A DNA stretch of 64,000 bases from Prevotella sp. E13-27 (lineage in GTDB: Bacteria > Bacteroidota > Bacteroidia > Bacteroidales > Bacteroidaceae): NCBI RefSeq assembly GCF_023217965.1, contig NZ_JALPSC010000001.1, positions 1,240,001-1,304,000 of the forward strand, read 5' to 3'. Below are positions 7,717-22,877 of this stretch, piece by piece. Positions within the stretch are counted from its first letter, which is position 1, and each line of letters begins with the position of its first letter. A program made the translations under genes and the position numbers. Under the pieces are notes generated by a model. The model had not been told where the DNA came from. It ran no database searches and was given only the letters and a program-made list of their open reading frames with translations.

Positions 7717-7734
7717 AGTCGTCTCTTTTTATAT

Positions 7735-10700
7735 TTAACGAACCACGACCTTCTTTCCGTTCACCATATAAATACCCTTCTTCACGGCATTCACGCGACG
7801 ACCTTGCATATCGTAAACGTTTTTCAGCTGCTTGGCAGTCTCAATAGAAACGATACCAGTAGCCTCATCGCCAATCATCAGCTGAGCGCCAGCATTAGCT
7901 GCCTCGTGTCTCTGAGCATTGACATCAGAGAGAACCACATTGCCAGCCTGCACACGATAGGCTCCCTGCATGTCGTTTGCAGCCTTCACTTGCAGACGCA
8001 TCACAGCACCCTCGTTCAGTTCATCGTTCATCATCGAAGAGCAGATAACACGGTAATATCCATCTGCATGCTTCTGAGCCCAAACACCATGATGGCGGTC
8101 TGTTGCCTCGGCAGTCTCGGTATTCAGCTGGATACCCTCTGGCAGATACAAATCGAACTGCAAGCCCGTGTAGCTTCTATCTTTATTAATAAGGTTTACA
8201 ATCAGTTCGCCCTCGCCATTTGCATTTACTGTCATATCAGAGAGACTGATGATGTTTGGATACATCTCCATTTGACCAAACATACGACTACCGGCAGGAG
8301 CATTCTGTGCAAGGATCACATTCACCAGTGCGGCATAGTCGTTCACCTCTACAACTCCGTTTCCATCCATATCGGCGGCATTGAACACGAGGCTGGCATC
8401 AGCATTCTCAAGGATAAAGAGAACCACACCCGTCAGGTCGGCCACGTCAATATGTGTATCATTGTTTACATCACCCATCGTATAGGCAGAAACAGTAATC
8501 ACACTCTTCATGTCAGCCGCAGCATAGCGAGTGGCCTGCGGATCAGTGAGCACGATATTCTTCAGTTCCACATCATAGTCGCCAGCTTCCATTGTGGTCT
8601 GCGGGAAGAGAACCAATGAAAGCAGGGTACCGCTATTGCCTGTAAAGGTGGCATTCTGAGTGGATGAAACAACCACACGCAGTGCGCCATCGCTCATCAC
8701 GCGAGAAGACACAGAGTGACGGCGAGTAGTAGTACGGTCGCCCAGCTCTATCTGATAGTCACCATATTCATCGGTGCTCAGCAGCATGCCCTCTGGCAGA
8801 TACAAGTCGAACTGAACTGCACTAATTTCATTCACGTTGTTCATCTCGATAGGCAGACGGAACTCCGCACCACGTGAAGCCTTCAAGCTGCTGGCAAAAG
8901 CCAGTGTGTTGTCGGTCTGATACTCGTTCTTCACCTGCTTGTTCTTAAACGAGCGGATAGCGGTGTTCAGCAGTTCGGTACAGTCTTCTACATCCTCTTT
9001 GAGCATGTTGTCAACGATGCGTGCGCTTACCTCATTGATTACAGCCTTCAAAGCAGCCTTGGCACCTGGGCGATAGTTACCTGGTTCAGTACCTTCCACA
9101 GCAGCATTGTAGAGTGCCTGAGCCTCACCGAGCAGAGTCTCAAGGGCGGCAATCTCCTCAGCAGTAGCCTTCGGTTCGCTGCCAATAGCCACCACGTTCG
9201 TAAACTGCTTCCAGTTGTCAGCCTTCGTATAGGCAGTCTTAGCAGAAGAAGGAACATGCAAAGTGGGAGTAGTATAGTCAGTGAAAGTGTTTGCTTGAAT
9301 GGTTGGAGGAGTGGTAGCGTTCATATAAATATTTGAAAGAACTGAGCAACCCGCAAAGGAATTCGAGCCAATTGAAGTTACAGATGAAGGAAACGCAATC
9401 TTCTTTAGACTACGGCAATTTTTGAAAGTATTTTCACCGATTGTATTTAGTACATTACTATTAATAACAACATCGACTAATTTTACGCAATCTTCAAAGC
9501 ATCCCTTACTATTGGATGTTTTTATAGAATTAAGCCCAGTACCTATTATAACCTTTTTCAAAGATGAACATCCTTTAAAAACTGAAGTCATAGTCTCGAC
9601 GCTATTTGGAATGTCAATACTTTCCAACTTAACGCAATTTTGAAAAGCGCCATTATCAATAGAAGTAACCTTTCCCAATTCAACATTTTTTAGATTTGTG
9701 CAATTATCGAACGTATTACTCTGAATGGTCAATACAGAATTGTCAAATACTACAGACTCCAAACCTATGCAATCAGAAAAAGCATAATTGCCTAAACTCG
9801 TTACATATTCAGGGATAAACACATCCGTTAAAGAAGTACACCCAGAAAATGCTCTACTGCCGATAGCAGACAATGATGGGGGCAAATTTATTGTCTGTAA
9901 TTTTGAACATCCTTCAAATGCACGGCCACCTATTGATTGCAAAGTATTTGGTAAAGCAATTAATTTCAAATTGTTGCATCTCCCAAAAGCACTTTCACCA
10001 ATAGATATTAATGTATTAGGAAGTGATATGCTTTCCAAACTAGAACAGCCAGAGAATGTCATACCAGGAAGATCTGTAATTGTATTTGGAAGATGGACAG
10101 ACGTAAGTTTTACACAATTCTCAAAACACCCGTGAGTAGAGCTTAACCAAAATGTATTAAGAACAACTAACGAATTCCCTAAGTCAACTTCTTCCAATGA
10201 AGAACAACCAAAGAAAGGAGCTTTTAGCGTTACATTCGCATCTTCAACTTTAACTTTCTTCAGGCTTTCGCAGTTTCCAAAACAGCCATCATCCATATTA
10301 GTAACAGAAGCAGGAATAATAACTTCTTTCAACGAAGTTTGAGCAAAGGAATGACCTCCAATAATTTTTAATGAAGAAGGAAATGTTATTGAAGACAAAG
10401 GATTATTGCTAAATGCAGACACTCCGATACTTGTCAAAGAAGAAGGTAGCTCGATTTCTGTAATAGCACAACTAGAAAAAGCGTTGTCCTCAATCTCTGT
10501 CATCGTATTAGGTAATTTTACGTCATACAACTTAGTACAACCTTCAAATGTATATTTTCCTGTTTTTAGAAGTGATGAAGGCAGTGTTATGGTTTTTAAC
10601 GATTTACAACCATAGAAAACACGGCCAGGATCGCCTGATCTGGTTATTATAGTGCCTAAGTCATAGACAGCATTACCCAAATCAACTTCTTCCAAAAGTC

Positions 10701-11343
10701 CACATTGAAAAAATGAATATGCGCCGATTGCTGCGGAAGCATTATTAATAACTAGTGATTTTAGTTTTGAATTATTTTGGAAAGCTCCAGCTCCGATTGT
10801 TTTAACAGAATTCGGAATCAATACATTTTCAACACCAGCATTCTCAAACGCGTTTTTTTCGATAGAGACTGTCTGATTTCCAAAAGACACAGTGTTCAAA
10901 TTAGAACAGCCATAAAAAGAGTATTCTGCAACATCTTTCAGTGCATCTGGTAACACAATACCCTGTAAATTCTTACACTCACGGAATGCGCTAGCGCCCA
11001 AGCTACTCAACGTAGAAGGCAGGCTGACAGTCTTTACTCCTGACTGATAGAAGGCCTGATTACCAATTATGATTAGTCCTTCAGGAAGTGTAACACTTTC
11101 CAAGTTTGCAGCAGACTTAAAGGCATTCTCGCCAATAGCCGTTACGAGATAGGTCTTACCGCTCAGTCCTACGGCTTGCGGAATTGTAACATCACCATCA
11201 TAAGCATAATCGCCACTAACTACACTCACGGTGTTGGAACCCGTAATGGTGTAATAAATACCATCTGACTCGAAGTCGTAAGCCAACACGTTGAGGCTAC
11301 TCAACACCGTTAGCATACAAAGTAGAAAAGATCTCTGTTTCAT
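7735..11343 (-). CDS. BspA-like leucine-rich-repeat surface protein with cohesin- and dockerin-like domains
   Basis: 1202 residues. A signal peptide (about 1-21) is followed by a long array of LRR_5 repeats (PF13306, about 45-720), with units such as AFSGCTSLTDVFIPEYVTSL of about 23 residues. A helical FIVAR-like stretch (about 730-805) comes next, then a cohesin-like domain (about 815-940), a dockerin-like Ca-binding repeat pair (MGDVNNDTHIDVADLTGVVL and MDGNGVVEVNDYAALVNVIL, about 945-1000), a second cohesin-like domain (about 1020-1150) and a sorting tail (YDMQGRRVNAVKKGIYMVNG). BspA relatives bind host proteins and promote adhesion. Here adhesion is an inference. It is transcribed through a long structured leader from a promoter shared with the C10 peptidase gene. 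Confidence 0.85.
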   Translation of the reverse strand: MKQRSFLLCMLTVLSSLNVLAYDFESDGIYYTITGSNTVSVVSGDYAYDGDVTIPQAVGLSGKTYLVTAIGENAFKSAANLESVTLPEGLIIIGNQAFYQSGVKTVSLPSTLSSLGASAFRECKNLQGIVLPDALKDVAEYSFYGCSNLNTVSFGNQTVSIEKNAFENAGVENVLIPNSVKTIGAGAFQNNSKLKSLVINNASAAIGAYSFFQCGLLEEVDLGNAVYDLGTIITRSGDPGRVFYGCKSLKTITLPSSLLKTGKYTFEGCTKLYDVKLPNTMTEIEDNAFSSCAITEIELPSSLTSIGVSAFSNNPLSSITFPSSLKIIGGHSFAQTSLKEVIIPASVTNMDDGCFGNCESLKKVKVEDANVTLKAPFFGCSSLEEVDLGNSLVVLNTFWLSSTHGCFENCVKLTSVHLPNTITDLPGMTFSGCSSLESISLPNTLISIGESAFGRCNNLKLIALPNTLQSIGGRAFEGCSKLQTINLPPSLSAIGSRAFSGCTSLTDVFIPEYVTSLGNYAFSDCIGLESVVFDNSVLTIQSNTFDNCTNLKNVELGKVTSIDNGAFQNCVKLESIDIPNSVETMTSVFKGCSSLKKVIIGTGLNSIKTSNSKGCFEDCVKLVDVVINSNVLNTIGENTFKNCRSLKKIAFPSSVTSIGSNSFAGCSVLSNIYMNATTPPTIQANTFTDYTTPTLHVPSSAKTAYTKADNWKQFTNVVAIGSEPKATAEEIAALETLLGEAQALYNAAVEGTEPGNYRPGAKAALKAVINEVSARIVDNMLKEDVEDCTELLNTAIRSFKNKQVKNEYQTDNTLAFASSLKASRGAEFRLPIEMNNVNEISAVQFDLYLPEGMLLSTDEYGDYQIELGDRTTTRRHSVSSRVMSDGALRVVVSSTQNATFTGNSGTLLSLVLFPQTTMEAGDYDVELKNIVLTDPQATRYAAADMKSVITVSAYTMGDVNNDTHIDVADLTGVVLFILENADASLVFNAADMDGNGVVEVNDYAALVNVILAQNAPAGSRMFGQMEMYPNIISLSDMTVNANGEGELIVNLINKDRSYTGLQFDLYLPEGIQLNTETAEATDRHHGVWAQKHADGYYRVICSSMMNDELNEGAVMRLQVKAANDMQGAYRVQAGNVVLSDVNAQRHEAANAGAQLMIGDEATGIVSIETAKQLKNVYDMQGRRVNAVKKGIYMVNGKKVVVR

Positions 11344-11532
11344 AAGCGTTAATAATTTTTAAGTTATTGATATCTTATATTCTCTTATTGCTTCGCAGCA
11401 ACACACAGCAGAAGCGCGGGACTGTCTTTGCCAGTTCCGAGATGAAGGTCCTAGGAAAACCCTGAATAAAGAAAATGGAGATACAGCCCCACGCGTAACG
11501 CGTGAAACAGTCGTGCCCTCCTGCTTTATTCA
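11344..11532 (-). promoter_or_regulatory. Structured 5' leader of the BspA-like gene
   Basis: No gene is visible here. An imperfect inverted repeat pairs 11438-11471 with 11524-11569: CTGAATAAAG against CTTTATTCAG at the inner ends, CGAGATG..CCTAGG against CCTAGG..CATCTCG at the outer ends. At its centre is CACGCGT-A-ACGCGTG (11490-11504). In the minus-strand mRNA this could fold into a long hairpin between promoter and start codon. The role is unknown; attenuation or mRNA stability are possibilities. Confidence 0.5.
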
Positions 11533-11624
11533 GCCTTGCTTTTTGAAAATTTCCTAGGTTCTCATCTCGCAAGTTTGGAGCATAACGCTTCTTCTGCCGA
11601 GCGAATCCTTTTCGCTCTCGGTGG

Positions 11625-11632
11625 CAAAGATA
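11625..11632 (-). promoter_or_regulatory. -7 element (TATCTTTG) of the BspA-like gene
   Basis: A perfect TAnnTTTG match on the minus strand, about 280 bp upstream of the BspA start, just after the terminator in repeat A. The transcript would begin near 11618, directly at the CCGAGAGCGAA/TTCGCTCGG hairpin. Confidence 0.6.
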
Positions 11633-11635
11633 GAA

Positions 11636-11665
11636 CAAAAAATCCGAACCGCCAAGCGATTCGGA
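11636..11665 (-). terminator. Intrinsic terminator of the MNT/HEPN remnant
   Basis: Minus strand: CCGAATCGC-TTG-GCGGTTCGG (one T-G pair) followed by six T. It stops transcription from the toxin-antitoxin remnant before the surface-protein promoter. An identical copy is at 20542-20570. Confidence 0.7.
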
Positions 11666-11682
11666 GAAAAAGTCTAATTATT

Positions 11683-11822
11683 TCAGTCTGTATAGGCGAC
11701 TATTTCATAAAGATGCTCTATGAAATAATCTATTGCATCTCTGAGTGCAGGCAAATCATTCTTTACAACATCCCATACCAAATCAGTGTTGATGTCAAAA
11801 TAACCATGAGTGGTGTACGATT
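11683..11822 (-). pseudogene. HepT-like HEPN toxin remnant (C-terminal third only)
   Basis: In a frame offset from the upstream nucleotidyltransferase, the minus strand reads ESYTTHGYFDINTDL then VWDVVKNDLPALRDAI and ends IVAYTD-stop. This matches the C-terminal part of HepT/DUF86 HEPN toxins (typically RN...HGYF.ID...VW..VKNDLP.L). The N-terminal two thirds and the Arg of the RX4-6H active-site motif are absent. There is no start codon; the frame joins directly onto the 3' end of mntA, so a deletion removed the 5' part. Its stop codon lies inside repeat A. Confidence 0.7.
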
Positions 11823-12125
11823 CTAAGCTGCTGTAAAGATATCGATGCCATCTTTTTCAATTTGTTCTTTGAAGAAAGGACGTAAACCACTATGGTCTTG
11901 TACAAGATCTACCTTACATCCAAGCAGATATTCCAAAAATTGAGCAGCAAAGATATGATTATAAAATTTCGCAGGCATCCTTACAAATAGATCGACATCG
12001 CTTCCTTCATGATTCTCACCACGAGCAACAGATCCAAACAGGCGCATATAAGTTATTCCGAATCGCTTCTGCAGTTCGGTGGCATTCTTGCGAATGATGC
12101 TTATGTACTCTTCCGTTGTCTTCAT
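11823..12125 (-). CDS. mntA: MntA-like minimal nucleotidyltransferase (antitoxin of HepT type)
   Basis: 100 residues, the normal size of minimal nucleotidyltransferases. The active-site motif is LFGSVARGENHEGSDVDLFV (GSxARG and DxD), and a further acidic residue lies in KVDLVQDH. In MntA/HepT systems this protein AMPylates and silences the HEPN toxin. Here the partner downstream is reduced to a fragment, so the enzyme is orphaned. A TATCTTTG -7 (12143-12150, minus) lies 18 bp upstream, with TTTG 19 bp further up, a near-ideal Bacteroidota promoter. Confidence 0.85.
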   Translation of the reverse strand: MKTTEEYISIIRKNATELQKRFGITYMRLFGSVARGENHEGSDVDLFVRMPAKFYNHIFAAQFLEYLLGCKVDLVQDHSGLRPFFKEQIEKDGIDIFTAA

Positions 12126-12143
12126 AATGTTTAGATCGGCAGC

Positions 12144-12219
12144 AAAGATAAGGATTATTTGTGAAACGGCAAAGGAAACATTGCAAATAATTTGCTTTTT
12201 TCCTCACTTAATCGTACCT
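12144..12219. repeat. Repeat B, copy 1: divergent promoter segment
   Basis: 76 bp identical to 21096-21171. On the minus strand it gives the TATCTTTG promoter of mntA; on the plus strand it carries the GCAAATAATTTGC palindrome and TACCTTTG (12215-12222, running 3 bp past the repeat) that serves the AAA-ATPase copy 2. The copy at 21 kb differs at the very next base on each side, spoiling both -7 elements (TATCTTTA, TACCTCTG). Confidence 0.85.
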
Positions 12220-12244
12220 TTGCCGGTAGAAAACTGAAAATATT

Positions 12245-13475
12245 ATGAAGTACCCTATTGGCATACAGAATTTTGAGAAGATTCGTCGCGATGGCTATGT
12301 CTATGTTGACAAGACGCCATGGATGTGGAAGATGATATCAGAAGGTAGCTACTACTTTCTTTCTCGTCCGCGTCGCTTTGGCAAGTCACTGATGGTAAGC
12401 ACGCTTGAAGCGTTCTTCTCTGGTCAGCGCGAATTGTTCAAAGGATTGTACGCCGATACCGTGGAGTGGGACTGGCAACAGTACCCCATCTTTCATCTTG
12501 ACCTGAACGTTAAGAAATACGAGACGAAGGCTGATCTTGAAAAGGTGCTCAATAGACATCTTGAGCTGTGGGAGAAGACATACGAAAGCCCCTATGGTGA
12601 GCGTGACCTAGAAGAACGTTTTTTGCAAGTTTTGCGTTTGGCCTATGAGAAGACTGGTCGCCAGGTCGTAATTCTCGTCGATGAATATGACAAACCATTG
12701 TTACAGGTGATAGGTAACGATACATTGCAGTCAGAATATCGCTCAACGCTTAAGGCTTTTTATGGAGTCTTAAAGTCCTGTGACCGCTATATCAAGTTTG
12801 CCTTCCTTACGGGTGTCACAAAGTTTGGGAAGATTAGTGTATTCTCAGATTTAAATAATCTGATAGACATATCAATGCTACCACGGTTTACAGCTGTCTG
12901 TGGAATCACTGAAAAAGAATTGCATGACAACTTCGATGCTGATGTCAAGGCTTTAGCAGAAGCCAATGGCATGACTGTTGACGAATGTTATGAGCGGCTA
13001 CGCCAGGACTTCGATGGTTACCATTTCGATGTGGATGCACCTGGAATGTACAACCCGTTCAGCGTGTTGAATACCCTGTCCAGCCAGCGTTTCAAGGATT
13101 ATTGGTTTGAAACAGGTATGACTAATCATATCTTTAGACAAATGAAATCCCAAAACTATTCATTGGACATGGTTGCCAACGAGCCGCTTTTCTATTTCCA
13201 ACTTCATATCCTCGAAAAAGGGCACGATAGTATTGTTCAGCAGCTCTATCAAAGTGGTTACTTGACCATTAAGGAGTATGACAATGAGTTTAAGACTTTT
13301 TTTCTCGACTTTCCCAACCATATAGTTAAAGAAGGTCTGGAAAATAGATATATGAACTATATTCAACATTAAACAATATGCCAAGGCCTTTGATGGCGAT
13401 GAGCGTAACATCATAAAAATTGGTATCAACTTCTCTTCTGACACCCGTCGCTTGACAGAGTGGAAGATTGGCTGA
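12245..13475 (+). pseudogene. AAA-ATPase-like / PD-(D/E)XK protein, copy 2 (internally deleted)
   Basis: A duplicate of the gene at 4496. The first 375 codons are open, with near-identical AAA part (Walker A PRRFGKSLMVST, Walker B VVILVDEYDKPLL). The middle diverges (QMKSQNYSLDMVANEP). After NRYMNYIQH a stop occurs at 13370, and the DNA immediately continues with the last 100 bp of copy 1 (from CAATATGCCAAGGC to the final TGA at 13475). Thus a deletion removed the segment encoding the PD-(D/E)XK core, while the original 3' end survives out of use. The shortened 375-residue protein could still be made from the intact promoter. Confidence 0.85.
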
Positions 13476-13500
13476 TTCTTCAGGAAAATGGTGATACATA

Positions 13501-13543
13501 AAAAGAATGCTGTCCGTTGAAAAAACGGACAGCATTCTTTTTT
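13501..13543. terminator. Bidirectional intrinsic terminator
   Basis: AAAAGAATGCTGTCCGTT, loop GAAA, AACGGACAGCATTCTTTTTT. A long perfect stem with A and T tracts on both sides, between the AAA-ATPase pseudogene and the end of the C10 peptidase gene. Confidence 0.85.
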
Positions 13544-16500
13544 ACTTCACAATTATCTTTTTTCCCTTCACCATATAAATGCCCTTGGGTAATCCTTTAA
13601 GCGACGTTTCGTGACTGCGAATCATATGTCCGTTTATGGTATAGACATCGAAGGGTTCGTCATTGGCAAGAATGTTGGTAATACCTATCAAATTATATTC
13701 CGTAAAATAGCCAGGAGCTTTCGAACCACCATCAATACGGGCGTAGGTTGCATCGGTATGAGCACTGGAATATACTGTTCCCATGCCGCCAACCAATTTC
13801 TTGCAGCCTGTAAACATATCCTCACTATTAGTCAAATTCTTAGTGTTCCATTCCTCACTGACGTAGATTGTTTTCAGAGTCGAACTTCCATAGAACATCC
13901 AGCCCATGTTGGTCACATTAAAAGTATTAAAGCTACTCAAGTTAAGACTCGTCAGAGAAGAGCAACTAGCGAACATTGACTGCATGTTGGTCACATTCGA
14001 GGTATTAAAGCCACTCACATCAAGACTCGTCAGAGATGAGCAGCCATAGAACATTGCATACATGTTGGTCACATTCGAGGTATTAAAGCTACTCACATCA
14101 AGACTCGTCAGAGAAGAGCAGCCATCAAACATACTCCACATGTCGGTCACATTCATAGTATTAAAGCTACTCACATCAAGATTCGACAGAGAAGTGCAAC
14201 CAGAGAACATCGCATTCATATACTCCACATTCGAAGTATTAAAGTTACTCACATCAAGACTCGTCAGAGAAGAACAACCTTCGAACATCCAGAACATGTC
14301 GGTCACATTCGAGGTATTAAAGCCACTCACATCAAGACTCGTCAGAGAAGAGCAGTTTTCAAACATCCCAGACATTTCGATCACATTCGAAGTATTAAAG
14401 CTACTCAAGTCAAGACTCGTCAGAGAAGAGCAGCCTTCAAACATCCAGCTCATATACGTCACATTCGAAGTATTAAAGCTACTCAAGTCAAGACTCTTCA
14501 AAGAAGTGCAATCAGAGAACATAGAAGTCATATAGGTCACATTCGAAGTATTAAAGCCACTCAAGTCAAGACTCTTCAACGAAGTGCAACCAGAGAACAT
14601 AGTATTCATATCGGTCACATTCGAAGTATTAAAGCTACTCAAGTCAAGTCTCGCCAGTGAAGAGCACCCACGGAACATACAGGACATATCGATCACATTC
14701 GAAGTGTTCAGGTTTACTATACCATTAATAGTGGTAAGTTTTTCACAACCATCGAACCATAATACTGTGCTTGTCACACCTTTATACTCAGCGAATGTCT
14801 CGTCGAAGACTACACGCTTAATGAGTGAGGCAACATCGTTCCATCCTCGTTCATCATCCCAACCAAACGCGTCATGGTTAAACGGGCCGATGTTCATACC
14901 GTCTCGTTCTGCCTTCTTCTTATCATAGTAGAAAGTCAGCACGGTATTGCCATTGCTTAGTGCGGCGTAAGGCTCTGGACCCTCTAACACAGTCAGTTTT
15001 CCGTTTGTATAGCTGATGTCGTAGTTCTGAGCCTTGGCACCAGACACTGTAACAGGGTACTCACCAGGTACACTCCCCACTGTTGCCTCACAACTCACCG
15101 TCGGCTGTTTGATCAGCACATCTTCCGTCTCATTGTTCTTGAAGCCCGTGTAGGTCAGGGTGAACTCGGGCATCTCCTCCCACTGCTCCTTCGTATAGGT
15201 GCCTGCGGCAATAGTCAGAGGAGCCTTGGTGATGGTTAGCGTACCCATCACGCACTTCACATTATAATAATTTTCAACAGTTCCCTTTCTCAGAATGATG
15301 TCATAGGTACCTACTGGAGATGTAGCTGTTGCTTCACAGAAAATCTCAGGGGTTCCCTCAAGCGTGATGCCCTCAGTTGTAAACTCAAACACAGGATTGA
15401 CATCGCCATACTCACGGGTGTAATTCTTGCCTGTGATGGTTCCCAATGGCATGGGATCGTCTAAATCTATCGTTAGCCATCGTTTTGTCGCTTCATCTGA
15501 GAATTCCAGGTATGCCTGACAGGCTTTCTGTACATAACCATTGTCCGCATGTCTCATTATACCACGACCAGCCATATAATAAATACCATTATTAACCAGC
15601 GTGTCAACACTGAAAGCATCATAGTTACCAACAAACTTCACATTGCCCATTGCGTAACTGAGGTGGCTACCTTCTTTAGAGGAGATGACGACGTTCGAAA
15701 ATTCAGGATTCACGATATCCTCGCCTTCATCCCATTTTACAAAATATGGCACACCGGCTTGAATATATGTCAACGAGTCACTGAAAGTCATAGTCACACA
15801 AGAAGCGTCCATGGTAGCTTTGTTAAGCGTCTTAGCCACAGCGCCATCTAAACTACTCCCCTCTAGTGTCAAGTTAAAAGGTAAGGTAATCGTATTCCAA
15901 TTTTTGTCTTTCTTTAGCGTACGTCCCGCAAGGGTTACGTGAGCCTTCCTTCCCTGATTATTGATAATCACCTTGCTGTTTACACCCTCGTCACGAAGGG
16001 TAATCAAAGCGAATTCCCCACTCTCGGTCCATTCGCCTGGTTCTCCGTCTACAATACTGCGTATGCGATATTCGTATCCATTATTAGTCGGCAGGCCGCT
16101 CAGCGTAGCTACTGTATCGGTGACAGTAATTTCTTGCCACTCCCCAGCGGGAGCAGATGATGTTCCGTAAAGACCGAAATTATCAACATTTAGGCGGAAT
16201 TGATCTGTGCTATTAAAGTGACGGATGGCAATATATCCCTGCTGTCCGGCATAAGCGCTCAGGTCTGCGGTATATGCCACATAGTTGCTAGTAGCAGTAG
16301 TTTCTGGCACCAGTTCTGTAGAAAAATCCTCAACAGAAGTACCCGAAGTAGAGAGGTATATGGCAAAATTTTCGACTGGCCATTCTGGGTCCTGCGATCT
16401 CAGATATACACGCATAGTCCCCTGAAGATGGAGGAGCGGCGTAATGAGCCAGTTGTCTGGCGTAAGAGCAGATTTATTGTAACTGGCCGATGTGACACAA

Positions 16501-19500
16501 CTCCTACCCATAACAGTAGGAACACCTTTAATATCATTAATATCACTCGGCGTGAAAAGGAACCAGTTATTCCCGTCACCATCATTATCTATTGTAGTCC
16601 AACCTTCTGGAAGAGAAGAGCTCTTGAGTTCCTCAAAACCTTCGAAGAAGAGCACATCATCATTAGCCGTTGTCCGGTATTGCACGTTATAACTGTCGCC
16701 ATAACCCGTCCATCTCAGTGTCGCACCATCGGCCATTAAGTCTGAGCGAATATTGGCGGGCTGAGGATTCTTGACCATGGTGGTGAAATAATGCATATCC
16801 GTCCATTTTGAATCACCTTCTGAGTTAACTGCCTGCATCTGAAATTCGTATGTAGTCTCAGGAGAAAGCCCAGTCAATTCTATGCTCGTTTCTTCAGTTG
16901 ACGCATTCGTCCATTCTACCGTATCGGGCTCGCCATATATGGCAAAATCATCTATTTCAAGACTATAGCAGTTGCTACTCACATGGTGAATGGCAATGTA
17001 TCCCTGCTGTCCGGAATAACGACTAAGGTCTATATTAATTTCTGTCCAGTCGTTGTTATCCGATGCCGCACACATTGCCCGTAATGTATCTGTAAAGTTC
17101 TCTATGACATTGCCCCTAGTAGAAAGAAGGACCTCACAACTATCAGGATAAGCCATCCTTGTACGCACCCAGAATCTCAGTTCATTTCCAAAAGCCACCT
17201 GTGGCGTGACAAGCCAGTTGTCCGCATTATATGCACTTGAGCTTTTCCAACTCCATGCTATGGCAGAATGGGTTCCGCTATGCGCAGAGGATGAAGAATT
17301 CGACACCCATCCATCTGTTTGCGGAGCCCCGCCCTCAGTATATATTGTCCAATGATCAAGTCCATTCTCAAAGTCATCACTGAAGACGACAGGTACAGAA
17401 GTAGCCCTTCTATAACGCACATTGTAAACATCACCTTTGCCAGTCCAGTAAATAGTAGCCTTTGTCGGGGCTGGAGTTACGTCAACAATGATGGGGATTG
17501 GACATATAACTTCTGTAGTAAAAATGACCAAATCACTCCATTTTTCCACCTCATCCGTAGCTGGTTTCACCTTAACCATGTACGTTGTCTCATCCTTTAG
17601 ACCTTCCAACGTAAAAGGATTATTACTGGTTGTGACTTCTGCATAGCTATCCATGCTATCGGTCTTATAGGCCACCACCCATTCGGTGGCAGGAACAAGA
17701 CTGTTTTCAGTCCATTCTATCACCACACTGTGCGAACCAATCTCCTTTATATTGAGATTTGAGGGCCTTCTCCACGGTGTTAGCGTACAATCGACATGAT
17801 AAGTAAACAAAATATCACCAGTATTTAACGACTTGGAACCATTTCCTGAAAAGAGAACCTCATCATTGACATCGGAGACAGACCACATACATTCAGATGG
17901 ATAACTTCCTGCTACCCATAGGAACTGAATGTCCCTACCGCTGGGTACCCGCACTAAATGAATATTCTGCTCATTCTCAGAAGACCCCTTGGTCTCATTA
18001 AGGTTCTCATTGGTATATGTGCCAATTTCAATACCACTCAACGCATCCACAATTTTGATGGCGTTACCACTCCATCCATCGCCATACGTATCAGTAAGCA
18101 TTAACGTAATCTGACAATATTCTTCAGCCAGTTCTGTGTTGAATCTCACAGGTATTGACCATCGGCTAGTCTCATCATCCGTTCTTCCACGCACCTTTAC
18201 TATATATCTCGTGGCATATTCAAGACCTGTGAGTACATAGGGGCTGCTGACGTTTTCTATCAAGGAGTCGTTTATACAGATGTCGCATGTGGCGACATCG
18301 CACGTCCATGTCACAGTTGCCTCCTGTCCCCCAACATAGTCAATAGTGATATCCGTGGCGAAGCCAACTGGAGCAACGTCAGGAGTAGTGTCGAAAACGA
18401 CAGTAGGCAAAAAATTATATATCCGGATATTCGACTCACGCCCGCCCAGAGAGGCACCTATGGCACTCGTACCATACCATTTACTTGGGGCATAATCACC
18501 CGATTTTGTTTGTCTGATACCTACCAAGAGGTTTTCGCCCATATATTGATAAGGCACATCAAAGTCAATTTTCATCTGGTAATCATTAACAATAAGATTA
18601 CCGGCATAGACTCTCTCTAATAAAGACCAATCATAGGAGATAGTGTCAGAAAAGAATGTATCGCCCACTTCACTCAGATATACATCGAATTCAGCTTCCC
18701 CCCAGCTGACAGCCGACAGTGAAGAAGAAAACGTCAAGCCATTGATTTGCGCATAAAGAATATCTTTCAAATTCTCAGCAGGAACAATGAATTGACTTTT
18801 TATATATTCATCACAATACGAGCCATACACCGGTACATAGCTGTTTGTCTCTCTCTTAACGACTGTAAGTGTGGCTGCAACTTCCCCATCAGTAGTATAA
18901 GAGCCTATAGTATTGGGCAAAAAAAACACAAAATTCATGACACCATACGTTTCAGGCCGATATGTAAAGACACAATCTTTCGTCTGTCCAGCAGGAATAG
19001 TGAAGTCACTGCCTTCTAATAAAGAGTATCTGGACTGTCCGTTATAATTTGTTTTTAGGCCTATATATATATCACCATCATAGTCGTCTGTGCTATTATT
19101 GGTGATATTCAGTGTGATAGACACCAACTCGCCCATAAAAATGGTATCGCTGCTTAGATTCATGGCATTCAATGTGAGGTCAAGGACATTTGGTGAGATG
19201 TTTGCCACCGTACCGCCATCAGAAGGTTTCTGAATACCAATAACGGCATCCTGTCCATAATGAAAGCCATCTGCTGACGTACTACCACCAATTCCCTGCT
19301 TTTCGGGGTCTAAGGCTGAAAGCACAAAATAGTCATCGCTCACGCCACCCCATCCCCAGTTGATGTGAAAAAAGTCTGTACCGTCCTCATAAACATAGCC
19401 ATCGCAGACGAACTCATGACCACCGCCAGACGACTGTCCGCCATAGACTACTGGACGTCTGTTTTTCAGTTCATGATAAATCAAGTCAACCCACTTGGAA

Positions 19501-20390
19501 TAAGTGTAGTAACTGCGGGAGATATATTGTGTCGTAATAGAATCATAATCAAAATAATTCTTGAGCGCATCAGCTACAAGGTCGGTGTAGGAACCAGACT
19601 GTGGACCATAATCCGTCATTACGGACCAGCCGCAGTATTTCATCAGCGTAGCAACGGCATCAGCCTCTTCCGTGGTATAGTCTTCGGAATAACTGTCTCT
19701 CATATTTTCCCAGTTGAAGGTTGTAGCCGTGAGGGAAGATAAACTCATGTTATATGACGAGGTCGTGTATCCAGGAATGATTGCGGTTTCAGACTGTGGC
19801 CATTGATGGAACTTCATGACTTGTGCCATTGCCGTAGCCACACAACCTGTAGCCGACCTATAGTAGTAGCTGCCGCTCTTATACTGGGGCGTTTTATTAT
19901 TATACGGCACTCCTTGATTCCATGTCGTTGCCACAAGGGGAGCAATGGGAAGTCTCTCCGAATCAGAAATCTGATTGGAGACTGTGACCATAGCAAACCG
20001 CCCATCCTCGTCTTGCCGCTGCAACCATGAGATTTCGTCAGCGTAGCCCTGTAGCCAAGCATACATATTGGCTGGCATTGCGGTCGCATCGAAGATTCCA
20101 CTTTCACTAAAGCCTAATATAGACCTGGTACGACTGTCGCCCGAAACGACTACAAAACCACCATTAGACTCATCATTGAATATATAATAAGCATCACTAC
20201 TCAAAGCAGTCACCATCCGCGGATCCTTTCGGGGTGCTTTCTTTTTTCCTTTACTTAATGTTGATGACTTTGTAAAAAACTGCAATGCGCGCTGTTTCGC
20301 ATCATCCATAGAAATTTTCTGCGCCCAGAGATTTCCTCCTATCATCAGAAATGTAATGGACAAACATAAAAATAAAAAAAACTTTCTCAT
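13542..20390 (-). CDS. Giant exported C10 (streptopain-like) cysteine peptidase fused to MBG and BspA-type DUF285 repeats
   Basis: 2282 residues from MRKFFLFLCLSITFL; the 51 upstream codons are only repeat A read through. Signal peptide about 1-23. Then a Spi_C10-like propeptide (about 25-110) and a C10 peptidase domain (about 125-400) with nucleophile Cys183 (RSATGCVATAMAQ) and His325 (SGGGHEFVCDGY), followed by HINWGWGG. The middle holds beta-sandwich/Fn3-like modules and two jelly-roll 'cleaved adhesin'-like domains (ADNWLVTPQVAFGNELRFWV; PDNWLITPLLHLQGTMRVYL). Two MBG repeats, about a dozen 25-residue DUF285 repeats (SFNTSNVTDM.MF.GCSSL) and a sorting tail (LPKGIYMVKGKKIIVK) complete it. 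Probably a secreted or surface protease-adhesin. Substrate unknown. Confidence 0.85.
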   Translation of the reverse strand: MRKFFLFLCLSITFLMIGGNLWAQKISMDDAKQRALQFFTKSSTLSKGKKKAPRKDPRMVTALSSDAYYIFNDESNGGFVVVSGDSRTRSILGFSESGIFDATAMPANMYAWLQGYADEISWLQRQDEDGRFAMVTVSNQISDSERLPIAPLVATTWNQGVPYNNKTPQYKSGSYYYRSATGCVATAMAQVMKFHQWPQSETAIIPGYTTSSYNMSLSSLTATTFNWENMRDSYSEDYTTEEADAVATLMKYCGWSVMTDYGPQSGSYTDLVADALKNYFDYDSITTQYISRSYYTYSKWVDLIYHELKNRRPVVYGGQSSGGGHEFVCDGYVYEDGTDFFHINWGWGGVSDDYFVLSALDPEKQGIGGSTSADGFHYGQDAVIGIQKPSDGGTVANISPNVLDLTLNAMNLSSDTIFMGELVSITLNITNNSTDDYDGDIYIGLKTNYNGQSRYSLLEGSDFTIPAGQTKDCVFTYRPETYGVMNFVFFLPNTIGSYTTDGEVAATLTVVKRETNSYVPVYGSYCDEYIKSQFIVPAENLKDILYAQINGLTFSSSLSAVSWGEAEFDVYLSEVGDTFFSDTISYDWSLLERVYAGNLIVNDYQMKIDFDVPYQYMGENLLVGIRQTKSGDYAPSKWYGTSAIGASLGGRESNIRIYNFLPTVVFDTTPDVAPVGFATDITIDYVGGQEATVTWTCDVATCDICINDSLIENVSSPYVLTGLEYATRYIVKVRGRTDDETSRWSIPVRFNTELAEEYCQITLMLTDTYGDGWSGNAIKIVDALSGIEIGTYTNENLNETKGSSENEQNIHLVRVPSGRDIQFLWVAGSYPSECMWSVSDVNDEVLFSGNGSKSLNTGDILFTYHVDCTLTPWRRPSNLNIKEIGSHSVVIEWTENSLVPATEWVVAYKTDSMDSYAEVTTSNNPFTLEGLKDETTYMVKVKPATDEVEKWSDLVIFTTEVICPIPIIVDVTPAPTKATIYWTGKGDVYNVRYRRATSVPVVFSDDFENGLDHWTIYTEGGAPQTDGWVSNSSSSAHSGTHSAIAWSWKSSSAYNADNWLVTPQVAFGNELRFWVRTRMAYPDSCEVLLSTRGNVIENFTDTLRAMCAASDNNDWTEINIDLSRYSGQQGYIAIHHVSSNCYSLEIDDFAIYGEPDTVEWTNASTEETSIELTGLSPETTYEFQMQAVNSEGDSKWTDMHYFTTMVKNPQPANIRSDLMADGATLRWTGYGDSYNVQYRTTANDDVLFFEGFEELKSSSLPEGWTTIDNDGDGNNWFLFTPSDINDIKGVPTVMGRSCVTSASYNKSALTPDNWLITPLLHLQGTMRVYLRSQDPEWPVENFAIYLSTSGTSVEDFSTELVPETTATSNYVAYTADLSAYAGQQGYIAIRHFNSTDQFRLNVDNFGLYGTSSAPAGEWQEITVTDTVATLSGLPTNNGYEYRIRSIVDGEPGEWTESGEFALITLRDEGVNSKVIINNQGRKAHVTLAGRTLKKDKNWNTITLPFNLTLEGSSLDGAVAKTLNKATMDASCVTMTFSDSLTYIQAGVPYFVKWDEGEDIVNPEFSNVVISSKEGSHLSYAMGNVKFVGNYDAFSVDTLVNNGIYYMAGRGIMRHADNGYVQKACQAYLEFSDEATKRWLTIDLDDPMPLGTITGKNYTREYGDVNPVFEFTTEGITLEGTPEIFCEATATSPVGTYDIILRKGTVENYYNVKCVMGTLTITKAPLTIAAGTYTKEQWEEMPEFTLTYTGFKNNETEDVLIKQPTVSCEATVGSVPGEYPVTVSGAKAQNYDISYTNGKLTVLEGPEPYAALSNGNTVLTFYYDKKKAERDGMNIGPFNHDAFGWDDERGWNDVASLIKRVVFDETFAEYKGVTSTVLWFDGCEKLTTINGIVNLNTSNVIDMSCMFRGCSSLARLDLSSFNTSNVTDMNTMFSGCTSLKSLDLSGFNTSNVTYMTSMFSDCTSLKSLDLSSFNTSNVTYMSWMFEGCSSLTSLDLSSFNTSNVIEMSGMFENCSSLTSLDVSGFNTSNVTDMFWMFEGCSSLTSLDVSNFNTSNVEYMNAMFSGCTSLSNLDVSSFNTMNVTDMWSMFDGCSSLTSLDVSSFNTSNVTNMYAMFYGCSSLTSLDVSGFNTSNVTNMQSMFASCSSLTSLNLSSFNTFNVTNMGWMFYGSSTLKTIYVSEEWNTKNLTNSEDMFTGCKKLVGGMGTVYSSAHTDATYARIDGGSKAPGYFTEYNLIGITNILANDEPFDVYTINGHMIRSHETSLKGLPKGIYMVKGKKIIVK
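13899..14710 (-). repeat. 75-bp coding repeat array (DUF285 units of the C10 peptidase)
   Basis: About eleven tandem copies of a 75-bp unit encoding SSFNTSNVTDM..MF.GCSSLTSLD. The copies are highly similar at DNA level, so unit number may vary between strains by recombination or slippage. Confidence 0.85.
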
Positions 20391-20439
20391 AAACTTGTAA
20401 TAATAATCGTTATTCCAATAGTTTGTATATAGGTTATTA

Positions 20440-20596
20440 GCCTTGCTTTTAAAATTTCCTAGGTTCTCATCTCGCAAGTTTGGAGCATAACGCTTCTTCT
20501 GCCGAGCGAATCCTTTTCGCTCTCGGTGGCAAAGATAGAACAAAAAATCCGAACCGCCAAGCGATTCGGAGAAAAAGTCTAATTATTTCAGTCTGT
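20440..20596 (-). repeat. Repeat A, copy 2: terminator + promoter + leader
   Basis: Second copy of the segment at 11533-11691. On the minus strand it has the toxin stop codon, a terminator (20542-20570), a TATCTTTG -7 (20530-20537) and a 5' hairpin leader, and here drives the C10 peptidase gene with a leader of about 130 nt. Confidence 0.9.
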
Positions 20597-20741
20597 TCCT
20601 TAATGATATCGGATTCATTTTCGTATCCCAAACATCTCGGATATATACGGTATCTGACTTATCACCATATTCTATTCTGGCATGATCCACATATTGATTA
20701 AACAGAGACCATGCTTGCTTCCGCCATTTGATTACAGCCAT
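20583..20741 (-). pseudogene. RelE/ParE-family toxin with internal deletion
   Basis: 52 residues from MAVIKWRKQAWSLF. The first 27 residues (KWRKQAWSLFNQYVDHARIE) look like the N-terminus of ParE/RelE plasmid-stabilization toxins, and the last 21 (VYIRDVWDTKMNPISL and RNRLK) look like the C-terminal strand and tail of the same family. The usual middle of about 45 residues is missing with the frame kept. Family members run to about 95-105 residues, so this is most likely inactive. It overlaps the upstream antitoxin gene by 10 bp, and its stop codon lies in repeat A. Confidence 0.6.
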
Positions 20742-21052
20742 GGATGTTCCTTTCTCATAGCAGCCCAAAAATCATCAATCTGAATCCATTTCTTGGGGTC
20801 TTCTATACCTGCATCTATCTCATCCATATCGGCCTCCATCTCCGCAACTCTTTGCTCAAAAACCTCTGGGTCATCGGTATAGAAACCAAACATACCGAGA
20901 GGTGTTCTGTCAATATTCTCGGTTTCCTCATCCATATATTCGATATCAGAAGAATTCTTGTCTTGCGTAGCATACGCCACCGCAGGCTCAGAGGCAGTCA
21001 TGCAACTGCCGTCCTCTTCTTCAATTATGGGATATTTCTTTTCTTCCATCAT
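20732..21052 (-). CDS. Putative antitoxin partner of the ParE-like remnant
   Basis: 106 residues (or 105 from the second ATG), very acidic, starting MMEEKKYPIIEEEDGSCM. No DNA-binding motif is obvious. Acidic character, position directly upstream and a 10-bp overlap with a ParE-like reading frame suggest the antitoxin of that pair. The family is not recognised by sequence. The mRNA leader has a GCACC/GGTGC hairpin (near 21077-21091). Its -7 (TATCTTTA, 21095-21102) is a mutated form of the mntA promoter at 12143, so expression may be weak. Confidence 0.5.
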   Translation of the reverse strand: MMEEKKYPIIEEEDGSCMTASEPAVAYATQDKNSSDIEYMDEETENIDRTPLGMFGFYTDDPEVFEQRVAEMEADMDEIDAGIEDPKKWIQIDDFWAAMRKEHPWL

Positions 21053-21095
21053 AAATGTTAAATAAAATGTCCGTGCACCAAGATGGTGCGCGGTA

Positions 21096-21171
21096 AAGAT
21101 AAGGATTATTTGTGAAACGGCAAAGGAAACATTGCAAATAATTTGCTTTTTTCCTCACTTAATCGTACCTC
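21096..21171. repeat. Repeat B, copy 2
   Basis: 76 bp identical to 12144-12219. It bounds the antitoxin/toxin slot on the right as its twin does for mntA/hepT, and forms the distal half of the double promoter element ahead of rbfA. Confidence 0.85.
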
Positions 21172-21248
21172 TGACTTCGTCTAAGGTACTCTCGCTCGAA
21201 AAAGCTCAAAAAACTTTTTGGCTTTTTGCTCGCTTATTCGTACCTTTG
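21130..21248 (+). promoter_or_regulatory. Double promoter element upstream of rbfA
   Basis: The distal unit ends in TACCTCTG (21167-21174) and the proximal one in TACCTTTG (21241-21248), 74 bp apart. Between them are the hairpin GTACCTCTGAC-TTC-GTCTAAGGTAC and an A/T stem-loop AAAAAGCTC..CTTTTTGGCTTTTT. Same design as at 4.3, 31.4 and 41.6 kb. Confidence 0.65.
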
Positions 21249-21279
21249 CAGCTGATTTATAAATAGATAGAAGAATAAT

Positions 21280-21615
21280 ATGCAGGAAACAAGACAAAAC
21301 AAGATAGCAAGGCTGCTACAGAAGGAGCTGAGCATGATATTCCAGGAGCAGACGCGCAGCATGCACGGAGTGATGGTTAGCGTAACCCGCGCAAAGGTGT
21401 CGCCCGACCTCAGCATCTGCACTGCCTACCTTAGCATTTTCCCGTCAGAACGTGGTGAAGAGTTGCTGAAGAACATTGAGCGTAGCACACAGCAGATACG
21501 CTTCGCACTGGGACAACGCGTGCGCCATCAGCTGCGTATAGTGCCCGAACTGCGATTCTTCATTGACGACTCGCTCGACTATATTGACCGCATAGACGAA
21601 CTGTTGGGAAAATAA
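21280..21615 (+). CDS. rbfA: Ribosome-binding factor A
   Basis: 111 residues, normal for RbfA, a KH-fold protein needed for late maturation of the 30S subunit and cold adaptation. The N-terminus ETRQNKIARLLQKELSMIF, central VSVTRAKVSPDLSICTAYLS and C-terminal LRFFIDDSLDYIDRIDELL are the conserved parts of the family. It sits 24 bp ahead of the FtsX/LolE-like permease, with a heptamer repeat in the gap, and the two are probably co-transcribed from the double promoter element. Confidence 0.93.
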   Translation: MQETRQNKIARLLQKELSMIFQEQTRSMHGVMVSVTRAKVSPDLSICTAYLSIFPSERGEELLKNIERSTQQIRFALGQRVRHQLRIVPELRFFIDDSLDYIDRIDELLGK

Positions 21616-21634
21616 CCTCTCACCTTTTACCTCT
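21615..21634. repeat. Heptamer repeat (ACCTCTC type)
   Basis: ACCTCTC ACCTTTT ACCTCT between rbfA and the permease gene. Confidence 0.75.
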
Positions 21635-21639
21635 GGAAG

Positions 21640-22869
21640 ATGAACTTCCCGTTTTTCATAGCACGACGATACCTCTTCTCAAAGAAGTCGACAAACGTTA
21701 TCAATGTCATCAGCGGCATCAGCGTCATTGGCGTTGCTGTGGCTACCATGGCACTGGTGGTGACGCTGTCGGTGTTCAATGGTTTCAGCGACCTTGTGGC
21801 ATCGCTCTTTACCGCCTTTGACCCACAGATAGAGGTAACACCGTGTGAGGGCAAGACCGTGGCTGCCGACGATTCCACGTTGACGGTTATACGTGAGCTG
21901 CCCGAGGTGGAAGTGTCAACAGAGTGTGTGGAGGATATGGCTTTGGTGGCCTTTCACGGTCGTCAGGCGGTGGTGACGCTGAAAGGTGTTGATGATAACT
22001 TTGACCAGCTGACACATATCCGTGAGATTCTCTATGGCGATGGCACGTTTGAGCTTCATGCTGCCGACCTCAGCTACGGCATTCTTGGCATTGGACTGGC
22101 TGAGAGACTGGGTACTGGCTACCGATTCAATGAGCCGCTCATGGTCTATGCTCCGCGTCGCGAAGGACAGCTGGCTATGGGTGACCCTGCCGACGGTTTT
22201 ATCTCTGATGAGCTTTATTCGCCAGGAGTGCTCTTCTCTGTGATGCAGGCGAAGTATGACCGTAACTATGTCATAGCCCCGATAGCCTTTGCGCGTCAGC
22301 TGTTCGACCAGCAGGGCATGGTGTCGTCGTTGGAGCTCCGACTGAAGAGCGGCAGTAACTTCGATGCCGTGAAGCGAAAGATTGAGGAAATTGCTGCAGG
22401 ACGGTTTTATGTCAAGGATCGCTACGAGCAGCAAGACGACACGTTCCGCATAATGAAGATTGAGAAGCTGATGGCTTACATCTTCCTTACATTTATTCTT
22501 GTGGTGGCTTGTTTCAATATCATCGGTTCGCTGTCTATGCTTATCGTTGACAAGCGCGATGATGTGGTGACGCTGCGTAACCTCGGTGCCACGGAGAAAC
22601 AGATAACCCAGGTGTTTCTCTTTGAGGGCAGACTGATATCGATGATGGGAGCAGTCATCGGCATAGCCGTAGGATTGTTGCTATGCTGGATGCAGCAGAC
22701 GTTTGGCATCATTGCCCTTGGCAGCAGTGCAGGCTCGTTCATCGTTGACTCCTATCCGGTGAGCGTTCATCCCACTGACGTGATACTGGTGTTCTTCACC
22801 GTAGTGGTGGTAGGATTCCTCTCGGTGTGGTATCCTGTGCGCTACTTCTCGCGCCGATTGCTGAAATAA
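21640..22869 (+). CDS. FtsX/LolE-family ABC transporter permease
   Basis: 409 residues. The N-terminus FFIARRYLFSKKSTNVINVI and ISVIGVAVATMALVVTLSVF is typical of LolC/LolE lipoprotein-releasing permeases. One membrane segment lies near 20-45, a large periplasmic MacB-PCD-like domain follows, and three segments are near 270-300, 320-340 and 375-400, with the FtsX motif VTLRNLGATEKQITQVFLFE. It would move lipoproteins from the inner membrane with a LolD-type ATPase, which is not nearby. Linkage to rbfA is often seen in Bacteroidota. Confidence 0.85.
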   Translation: MNFPFFIARRYLFSKKSTNVINVISGISVIGVAVATMALVVTLSVFNGFSDLVASLFTAFDPQIEVTPCEGKTVAADDSTLTVIRELPEVEVSTECVEDMALVAFHGRQAVVTLKGVDDNFDQLTHIREILYGDGTFELHAADLSYGILGIGLAERLGTGYRFNEPLMVYAPRREGQLAMGDPADGFISDELYSPGVLFSVMQAKYDRNYVIAPIAFARQLFDQQGMVSSLELRLKSGSNFDAVKRKIEEIAAGRFYVKDRYEQQDDTFRIMKIEKLMAYIFLTFILVVACFNIIGSLSMLIVDKRDDVVTLRNLGATEKQITQVFLFEGRLISMMGAVIGIAVGLLLCWMQQTFGIIALGSSAGSFIVDSYPVSVHPTDVILVFFTVVVVGFLSVWYPVRYFSRRLLK

Positions 22870-22877
22870 CAGACTTT

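Follow-up and report, generated by a model that had tools for sequence, protein, structure and literature searches.

The 64,000-nucleotide (nt) stretch of Prevotella sp. E13-27 analysed here (NCBI RefSeq assembly GCF_023217965.1, contig NZ_JALPSC010000001.1, positions 1,240,001 to 1,304,000; hereafter the window) carries, at two places, remnants of unrelated toxin-antitoxin modules held between copies of the same two repeats, A and B. The core of repeat A is an element of ~55 nt, which we call H, consisting of a 23-nt stem-loop, a T run and then TATCTTTG. In some Prevotella, often of rumen origin, copies of H repeatedly bracket unrelated toxin-antitoxin genes, which seem to have moved by exchange from one such bracket to another, and the two slots in the window are probably recombinant members of this H-bounded arrangement of toxin-antitoxin cassettes in a Prevotella clade, an arrangement that is apparently free of any integrase. 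The wider pattern appears to be new; a literature search, with subscription journals mostly outside it, listed no published description of H. Loci, genomes and contigs used for comparison are given by number after L, G and C, respectively.

Two slots between shared repeats

The region contains the following features (positions in the window; "unstranded" where no strand is assigned):

7735..11343, minus: BspA-type leucine-rich-repeat secreted protein (predicted), driven by the H1 promoter (gene list)
11404..11596, minus: structured leader RNA preceding the BspA-type gene, matched by model R1 at E 9.5e-45
11533..11691, minus: repeat A copy 1, combining a parE-like tail, H, a promoter and the leader RNA's 5' half
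11625..11632, minus: -7 box of the H1 promoter, TATCTTTG (sequence)
11643..11665, minus: H1 stem-loop TCCGAATCGCTTGGCGGTTCGGA, predicted terminator, its TTG loop lying 20 nt ahead of the -7 box
11666..11691, minus: 26 nt upstream of H1, starting with the parE-like 3' tail ACAGACTGAAATAA, in the other frame the end of hepT
11683..11820, minus: hepT remnant, C-terminal ~43 residues, ending in the parE tail (alignment to relatives)
11823..12125, minus: mntA, nucleotidyltransferase antitoxin, 100 aa, intact (Pfam, NCBIfam)
12144..12219, unstranded: repeat B copy 1, a divergent promoter whose two -7 boxes delimit the block of identity
12245..13372, plus: AAA-ATPase_like protein (PF09820)
13542..20390, minus: secreted protein of the C10 peptidase/BspA type, transcribed from the H2 promoter (predicted; gene list, Pfam)
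20440..20596, minus: repeat A copy 2, 5' half of the leader RNA only (sequence comparison)
20548..20570, minus: H2 stem-loop, identical to H1 (pattern search)
20583..20741, minus: parE-like toxin remnant, 52 aa, ~50 codons lost in frame (alignment to relatives)
20732..21052, minus: acidic antitoxin, 106 aa, intact, with leader GCACCATCTTGGTGCACGGACATTTTATTTAAC (gene list, alignment)
21096..21171, unstranded: repeat B copy 2, each -7 box one base off (sequence comparison)
21280..21615, plus: rbfA, housekeeping neighbour (Pfam)

The initial annotation described two slots with nothing in common between near-identical flanks, and sequence comparison bears out the repeats, their positions and what lies between them. 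The 150-nt core of A (11542-11691 against 20447-20596) is 99% identical, the two minus-strand copies agreeing from ACAGACTG through AAGCAAGGCT apart from a single 2-nt indel, and B extends over 84 nt (12139-12222 against 21090-21173) at 96% identity, with a 76-nt core that is 100% identical. The slots themselves, 11692-12143 (452 nt) and 20597-21095 (499 nt), are dissimilar, with a best blastn E of 0.33. The hairpin of A matches the window at only these two places while shuffled sequence gives an expectation of 0, which excludes chance. In the whole genome (3.96 Mb, two contigs) A is present as two full copies and one partial copy, and B as two full and ten partial copies, the partial ones corresponding for the most part to the promoter half on its plus strand, a type of promoter that is common in this genome.

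The terminator and promoter claimed for A are both recognisable, and A turns out to be composite, made up of a parE-like tail, the hairpin-promoter and the first half of a leader RNA. B had been read as a divergent promoter, which holds for copy 1 (TTTG-N19-TATCTTTG on the minus strand and TTTG-N20-TACCTTTG on the plus strand); in copy 2 each -7 box has one base changed (TATCTTTA and TACCTCTG), and a separate promoter for rbfA lies 75 bp beyond it. This rbfA promoter lies at 21217-21249, at a spacing from B2 that matches tandem promoter units seen elsewhere: units of ~65-76 bp stand in tandem upstream of genes at L180 (upstream of rbfA in G232), at G000:C1:1271408 and 1271484, and in G027, G049, G051 and G082.

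The families assigned to the minus-strand slot genes (MntA/HepT in slot 1, an acidic antitoxin with a ParE-like toxin in slot 2) stand, with the addition that both antitoxins are intact and both toxins only remnants, deleted to an extent that would leave both dead. MntA of slot 1 matches PF01909 (NTP_transf_2; E 6.5e-15, 55.7 bits against a cut-off of 21) and scores 47.2 bits with the NCBIfam MntA model, under the cut-off of 60; PADLOC gives uninformative matches only, such as PDC-S09. The HEPN core of its partner is absent, with only the C-terminal ~43 residues of HepT left (the protein is intact in L017, L022 and L024). In slot 2 the ParE-like remnant (51-61 aa) has no match to ParE_toxin or any other Pfam family and can be aligned over its full length with ParE-like relatives, with a gap of ~50 residues between, and Pfam and NCBIfam scans assign no family to the acidic antitoxin. 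The sequence ACAGACTGAAATAA is, in slot 2, the natural ParE-like C-terminus (NRLK, stop; relatives end in RLK or NRL), and in slot 1 it forms, in the other frame, the end of HepT (YTD, stop), a protein whose relatives end in EIVPFE or similar. Since bases of a parE tail lie inside the A copy of slot 1, this slot is a recombinant with sequence of a parE-type slot.

A third H in the same genome (C1:1321598) heads an mntA without hepT, followed by hicA (PF07927, E 3e-18) and a weakly hicB-like gene, and all three H copies of the genome thus adjoin toxin-antitoxin genes. The slot 2 antitoxin gene has a leader, GCACCATCTTGGTGCACGGACATTTTATTTAAC, similar to the one that follows this third H, a likeness that would fit a B joined at the -7 box to an operon of the slot 2 antitoxin type.

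Architecture of H

We collected 224 H sites and removed 60 near-duplicates, leaving 164, of which 163 were long enough for alignment. The block conserved across them begins ~9 nt ahead of the stem and ends with the -7 box (about -9 to +45), and no terminal inverted repeats beyond the stem are conserved outside it in the 163 sites. An exact TANNTTTG lies within 45 nt downstream at 138 of the 163 sites, and a copy with one mismatch at 15 more; at 127 of the 138 it stands exactly 10 nt from the stem. The same motif occurs upstream, as a control, at 2/163 sites on the same strand and 14/163 on the opposite strand. Bacteroidetes promoters carry TTG or TTTG at -33 and TAnnTTTG at -7, with ~19-20 nt between them, and in the window the loop of H reads TTG-N20-TATCTTTG, which puts the loop at the -33 position of such a promoter. 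The element folds at -15.6 kcal/mol (z -3.9), and its stable G+C-rich stem followed by a T run is that of a predicted intrinsic terminator; the stem comes close to a palindrome, and some of the aligned sites have compensated variants of it. Judged from these features, H would be an intrinsic terminator whose loop doubles as the -33 box of the next promoter.

Short 5' leaders with a GTGCAT..ATGCAC hairpin recur after the H promoter and before unrelated genes (L128, L107, L173, L129 and others). By eye, an H-like variant with a different stem (GCCGAATCGTTTGCACGATTCGGC, then TAACTTTG) is seen before a PemK cassette at L300 (G034:C65), suggesting that there are further families with the architecture of H.

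Distribution of H and of the A-B pair

Most relatives in the sample are metagenome-assembled genomes (MAGs), taken at one genome per species. A 28-nt H pattern with up to three mismatches is found in 43 of 299 congeneric genomes, and three times in the genome of the window, and the reversed control pattern gives 0 among the genomes listed in that search. The exact 23-nt stem occurs in 92 stretches of genome contigs; the 80 of these that were listed are titled Prevotella, Prevotellaceae, Bacteroidaceae or Bacteroidales, and many name the rumen, reticulum or abomasum. A viral vehicle for H was rejected, the exact stem having 0 matches in IMG/VR. Rfam finds nothing in the window at the gathering threshold, with weak chance-like matches in 7000-24000 and none in A.

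The initial annotation had A and B together as a fixed bracket, and this did not survive comparison: of 344 loci, only the window's own two places have A and B within 1.5 kb. The prediction that A followed by B would enclose varied contents in other genomes failed for the pairing, and came true in its second half, many different toxin-antitoxin genes, for the core of A only. One other contig (L097 = L269) has H with a 35-nt piece of B-like promoter (83%). The neighbourhood of rbfA was likewise rejected as a fixed slot, as rbfA is present in 29 of the 30 loci taken and H only in the window's own; with no H in the other 29, H would move about the genome and mark no single fixed site.

Toxin-antitoxin genes beside and between H copies

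Toxin-antitoxin or Rpn genes were sought by tblastn within 400 nt of the 141 H sites long enough for this analysis, and they lie upstream at 38 sites and downstream at 49, with 83 sites having such a gene on one side or more and 4 having one on each side. At control gene ends, all 1.5 kb or more away from H, the counts are 2/738 upstream and 3/738 downstream. Pfam scans, which do not depend on the tblastn seeds, covered 119 downstream genes, 118 upstream genes and 115 of 330 control genes. PDDEXK_2 (Rpn) is found in 14/119 downstream and 7/118 upstream genes and NTP_transf_2 in 6 and 2, joined by PIN_3 (3), HEPN (2), HepT-like (2) and, in 2/118 upstream genes, ParE (ParE_toxin); LRR_5 is found in 7/119 downstream genes. 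Rpn and these toxin-antitoxin families are absent from the 25 of 123 families listed for the control genes, which therefore hold at most one member of each. An unnamed pair of genes for proteins of 156 and 140 aa also follows H (L161:4064-4944, L090). The 156-aa protein has no Pfam or NCBIfam family and the 140-aa protein no Pfam family, and the two may form a toxin-antitoxin pair not described before.

Neighbouring H copies within 12 kb of each other lie on the same strand in all 33 distinct pairs (44/44 counting contigs sampled twice). As had been anticipated for relatives, the segments between copies of the shared element hold unrelated toxin-antitoxin genes: 27 of 28 distinct H-to-H segments shorter than 3 kb contain toxin-antitoxin or Rpn genes, the remaining one an ATPase remnant. 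Sixteen of the 28 are assigned by Pfam at E<=1e-3 (seven Rpn, three PIN and one each of MNT/HepT, HEPN/MNT, HigB, zeta, RelE, the last below Pfam's own cut-off, and ParE) and 11 by homology or inspection. Four of these 11 contain a 108/120-aa pair whose larger protein is PemK/MazF-like, judging by the NCBI names of two close homologues and by a PF02452 match of 28.0 bits in homologue P0094; the rest are five antitoxin/ParE-like segments, one VapB with a deleted VapC and one C-terminal remnant of Rpn. The arrays are small, with 1-3 cassettes each (two in L214 and in L270), and lie dispersed around the genome.

The state of the genes in the window, with parts of the toxin deleted and the antitoxin kept, recurs in L161, L175, L270 and L274 (partly judged by inspection). 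The Rpn genes of L169/L079, L089 and L223 have similarly lost the nuclease domain and retained the C-terminal part, which is reported to act as an antitoxin in E. coli (Zhong 2023 preprint, PMC10327210).

Exchange between related genomes

Contents were expected to differ between the same flanks in related genomes, and they do so at two pairs of loci, in one of them with a change of order. L228 and L274 share flanks of 98.8% (left) and 92.4% (right) identity, between which two cassettes stand in swapped order: H1-VapB-VapC-ATPase-H3-typA in L228, and H1-(deleted ATPase)-H2-VapB-(deleted VapC)-H3-typA in L274. The two sequences diverge directly after H and TACCTTTGCA. At L263, typA is preceded by a native promoter that lacks H and has the same TTCGTACCTTTGCACCC. 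In the second pair, L164 and L171 share an Rpn gene (99.8% over 1052 nt) and an adjoining flank (87.4%), after which their contents differ.

A mosaic test was made on 126 H sites, the window's own excluded. Of 75 pairs of homologous H sites, 64 share only the downstream side, 11 only the upstream side and none both; of 19 control pairs of gene ends, 4 share downstream only, 11 upstream only and 4 both. PemK homologues are found in 15/299 genomes, and at L305 the PemK gene is truncated within 4 nt of H. A comparison with empty sites between ruvA and ddh (L081, L086, L110, L142, L150, L284) gave differing contents and is not used as proof, because ddh itself is absent beside H in L284.

A leader RNA joined to H

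The part of A that follows the H promoter, when extended downstream, is a structured RNA of ~190 nt, of which the second copy of A has the 5' half only. Among seven sequences, double changes occur in 14 of 53 predicted pairs. Model R1 has matches in 41 of 247 genomes of the order and 33 of 174 genera, and in an alignment of 30 loci (L315-L344), fitted to the model, 92% of cells pair, double changes occur in 30 of 43 pairs and the score is 0.490, against 0.225 when shuffled and 0.072-0.107 when slid. A -7 box lies within 70 nt upstream at 27 of the 30 loci, a gene follows at all 30, and by a crude rule its product is signal-peptide-like at 20. The RNA has no Rfam match, and a second copy lies in the same genome at C1:2170988-2171176. 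We consider it a candidate for a new structured leader of mostly exported proteins across the order.

Discussion

What is seen directly is the anatomy of H, its direct orientation, its association with toxin-antitoxin genes on both sides, the differing contents and order between shared flanks, and the parE tail on hepT. To account for these we propose that each cassette, whether a toxin-antitoxin operon or an Rpn gene, would end in H, and many would begin with it too, so that the upstream transcript would stop at H and the next one begin there. Because H would both terminate and restart transcription, the gain, loss or exchange of a cassette would leave the transcription of its neighbours connected. 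Strand exchange would take place at H and at the universal -7 box by short-homology recombination or template switching, with no dedicated integrase. Of the two slots in the window, slot 2, of the parE type, would represent the older state, mntA-hepT would have been joined to the A and B sequence of a parE-type slot to give slot 1, and both toxins would afterwards have decayed by deletion with the antitoxins kept, an order of events that we infer. That H more generally serves as an integrase-less joint of exchange, trading toxin-antitoxin cassettes within and between genomes, perhaps with the aid of Rpn, and that loss of the toxin leaves antitoxin-only cassettes behind, is a tentative extension that we regard as possible rather than probable. 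The role of the Rpn nucleases in it is a guess, prompted by the RecA-independent recombination described for them in E. coli (Kingston 2017, PMC5350276).

Several observations weigh against an exchange of cassettes at H. The conservation of the stem is partly built into the search, which allowed up to 3-4 mismatches, and one pair on the same contig, 18.5 kb apart (G304:C67), is in opposite orientation. The A-B pair was found at no other place among the 344 loci, nor among the matches listed for 149 relatives, with three candidates scored per genome. The tblastn seeds were taken from H loci and are hence not independent of H; 58 of the 141 sites have no recognised toxin-antitoxin or Rpn gene within 400 nt on either side, and copies of H are found between housekeeping genes and ahead of BspA-type genes as well. 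A single clear swap of order was found, between MAG contigs, and the promoter in front of the L228 ATPase is not H. The mosaic test is biased by Rpn paralogues, which inflate its H side. Among eight close PemK homologues, three have H at both ends, one at the 5' end and four none within six mismatches, and none of nine distant homologues has it. Finally, no circle, excision product or rate was observed.

H might instead be the promoter of a regulon, with a palindromic operator on the -33 box through which a common regulator controls accessory genes (toxin-antitoxin, Rpn and BspA-type), the brackets reflecting neighbourhood only. The nearly palindromic stem with its compensated variants would suit an operator, as would H upstream of toxin-antitoxin or Rpn genes at 49/141 sites and before BspA-type genes (LRR_5 in 7/119). 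We consider this unlikely, as H lies downstream of toxin-antitoxin genes almost as often (38/141), with differing contexts beyond, typA has H in L228 and L274 and its native promoter without H in L263, and neither the swapped order nor the parE tail of slot 1 is explained. A purely local event, in which A and B were copied between two loci by duplication or gene conversion and the toxin-antitoxin genes are incidental, would account for the near-identity of A and B in this genome and for their pairing nowhere else; the leader half of A, native to C10/BspA-type genes, offers homology for conversion (the leader occurs without H in L019 of G050). Yet H recurs with toxin-antitoxin genes, in a sample where 43/299 genomes carry it, and the A of slot 1 begins inside the parE tail, so that contents would have been exchanged and not merely copied, which makes a local copying event quite improbable.

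Two further explanations make H itself mobile. As a small mobile promoter or an element of the REP or MITE kind, with toxin-antitoxin genes as tolerant sites, it would be a dispersed low-copy repeat with sharp ends and several copies per genome, as observed; we give this little credence in view of the common orientation of all 33 distinct neighbouring pairs, the roughly hundredfold association with toxin-antitoxin genes on both sides, and the lack of conserved terminal inverted repeats beyond the stem. An integron, or an integron array lacking its integrase (CALIN), in which H would be an attC-like site moved by an integron integrase, is suggested by direct repeats, single-unit cassettes and a hairpin site, and is nonetheless scarcely credible. 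None of 12 H genomes, some of them incomplete, has a TIGR02249 match above the cut-off, weak generic matches occurring in all 12 and in all 14 controls, and in 6 of 8 genomes the H contig carries no tyrosine recombinase, the nearest in the others being 14 kb (G291) and 7.4 kb (G000) away; we therefore rejected both an integron integrase and a nearby tyrosine recombinase as the mover of H. attC sites have the boxes GTTRRRY and RYYYAAC, and the conserved columns of the 163 H sites show, by eye, GTTCGGA and no GTTRRRY; H is moreover 23 nt plus a promoter, and the cassettes have promoters of their own. In G000, tyrosine recombinase matches of equal score lie at C1:544-966, C1:2227940-2228362 and C2:7618-8040, near both ends of C1 and one end of C2, and these contig ends may lie in a repeat.

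The arrangement resembles known systems in part. Like chromosomal integron arrays with toxin-antitoxin genes, it has cassettes that are single units sharing one orientation, direct repeats of a site able to form a hairpin between them (same strand in all 33 distinct pairs) and changes of order, but its boundary is a terminator plus promoter and not attC, and an integron integrase above the cut-off is lacking in the 12 H genomes. Rpn genes, the commonest cargo of H segments, are described by Kingston 2017 (PMC5350276) and Zhong 2023 (PMC10327210) as horizontally mobile toxin-antitoxin genes with an intragenic antitoxin, rpnC being inferred to have entered the panC-panD interval on two separate occasions, and the latter reports no identifiable terminal repeats and variable ends; unlike that description, Rpn here has in H a boundary in common with unrelated toxin-antitoxin families. 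The slot genes themselves recall MntA-HepT (type VII), through the NTP_transf_2 and weak NCBIfam MntA matches of slot 1, and ParE/RelE-type modules, through the alignment of the slot 2 remnant with ParE-like relatives, and differ from both in that the toxins are deleted and only the antitoxins remain. Mobile promoters and promoter propagation, as the names suggest, likewise involve a promoter as a dispersed, spreading unit, while the H promoter is fused to a terminator and tied to toxin-antitoxin cassettes.

How toxin-antitoxin modules move, and why they accumulate at certain places, is an old question. H offers a searchable boundary of 55 nt that predicts where such modules sit and which alternative occupants are possible, and the tolerance of these places to insertion would be explained if each H boundary insulates and restarts transcription. 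Across genomes, H may also serve as a marker for counting the gain, loss, change of order and toxin decay of cassettes.

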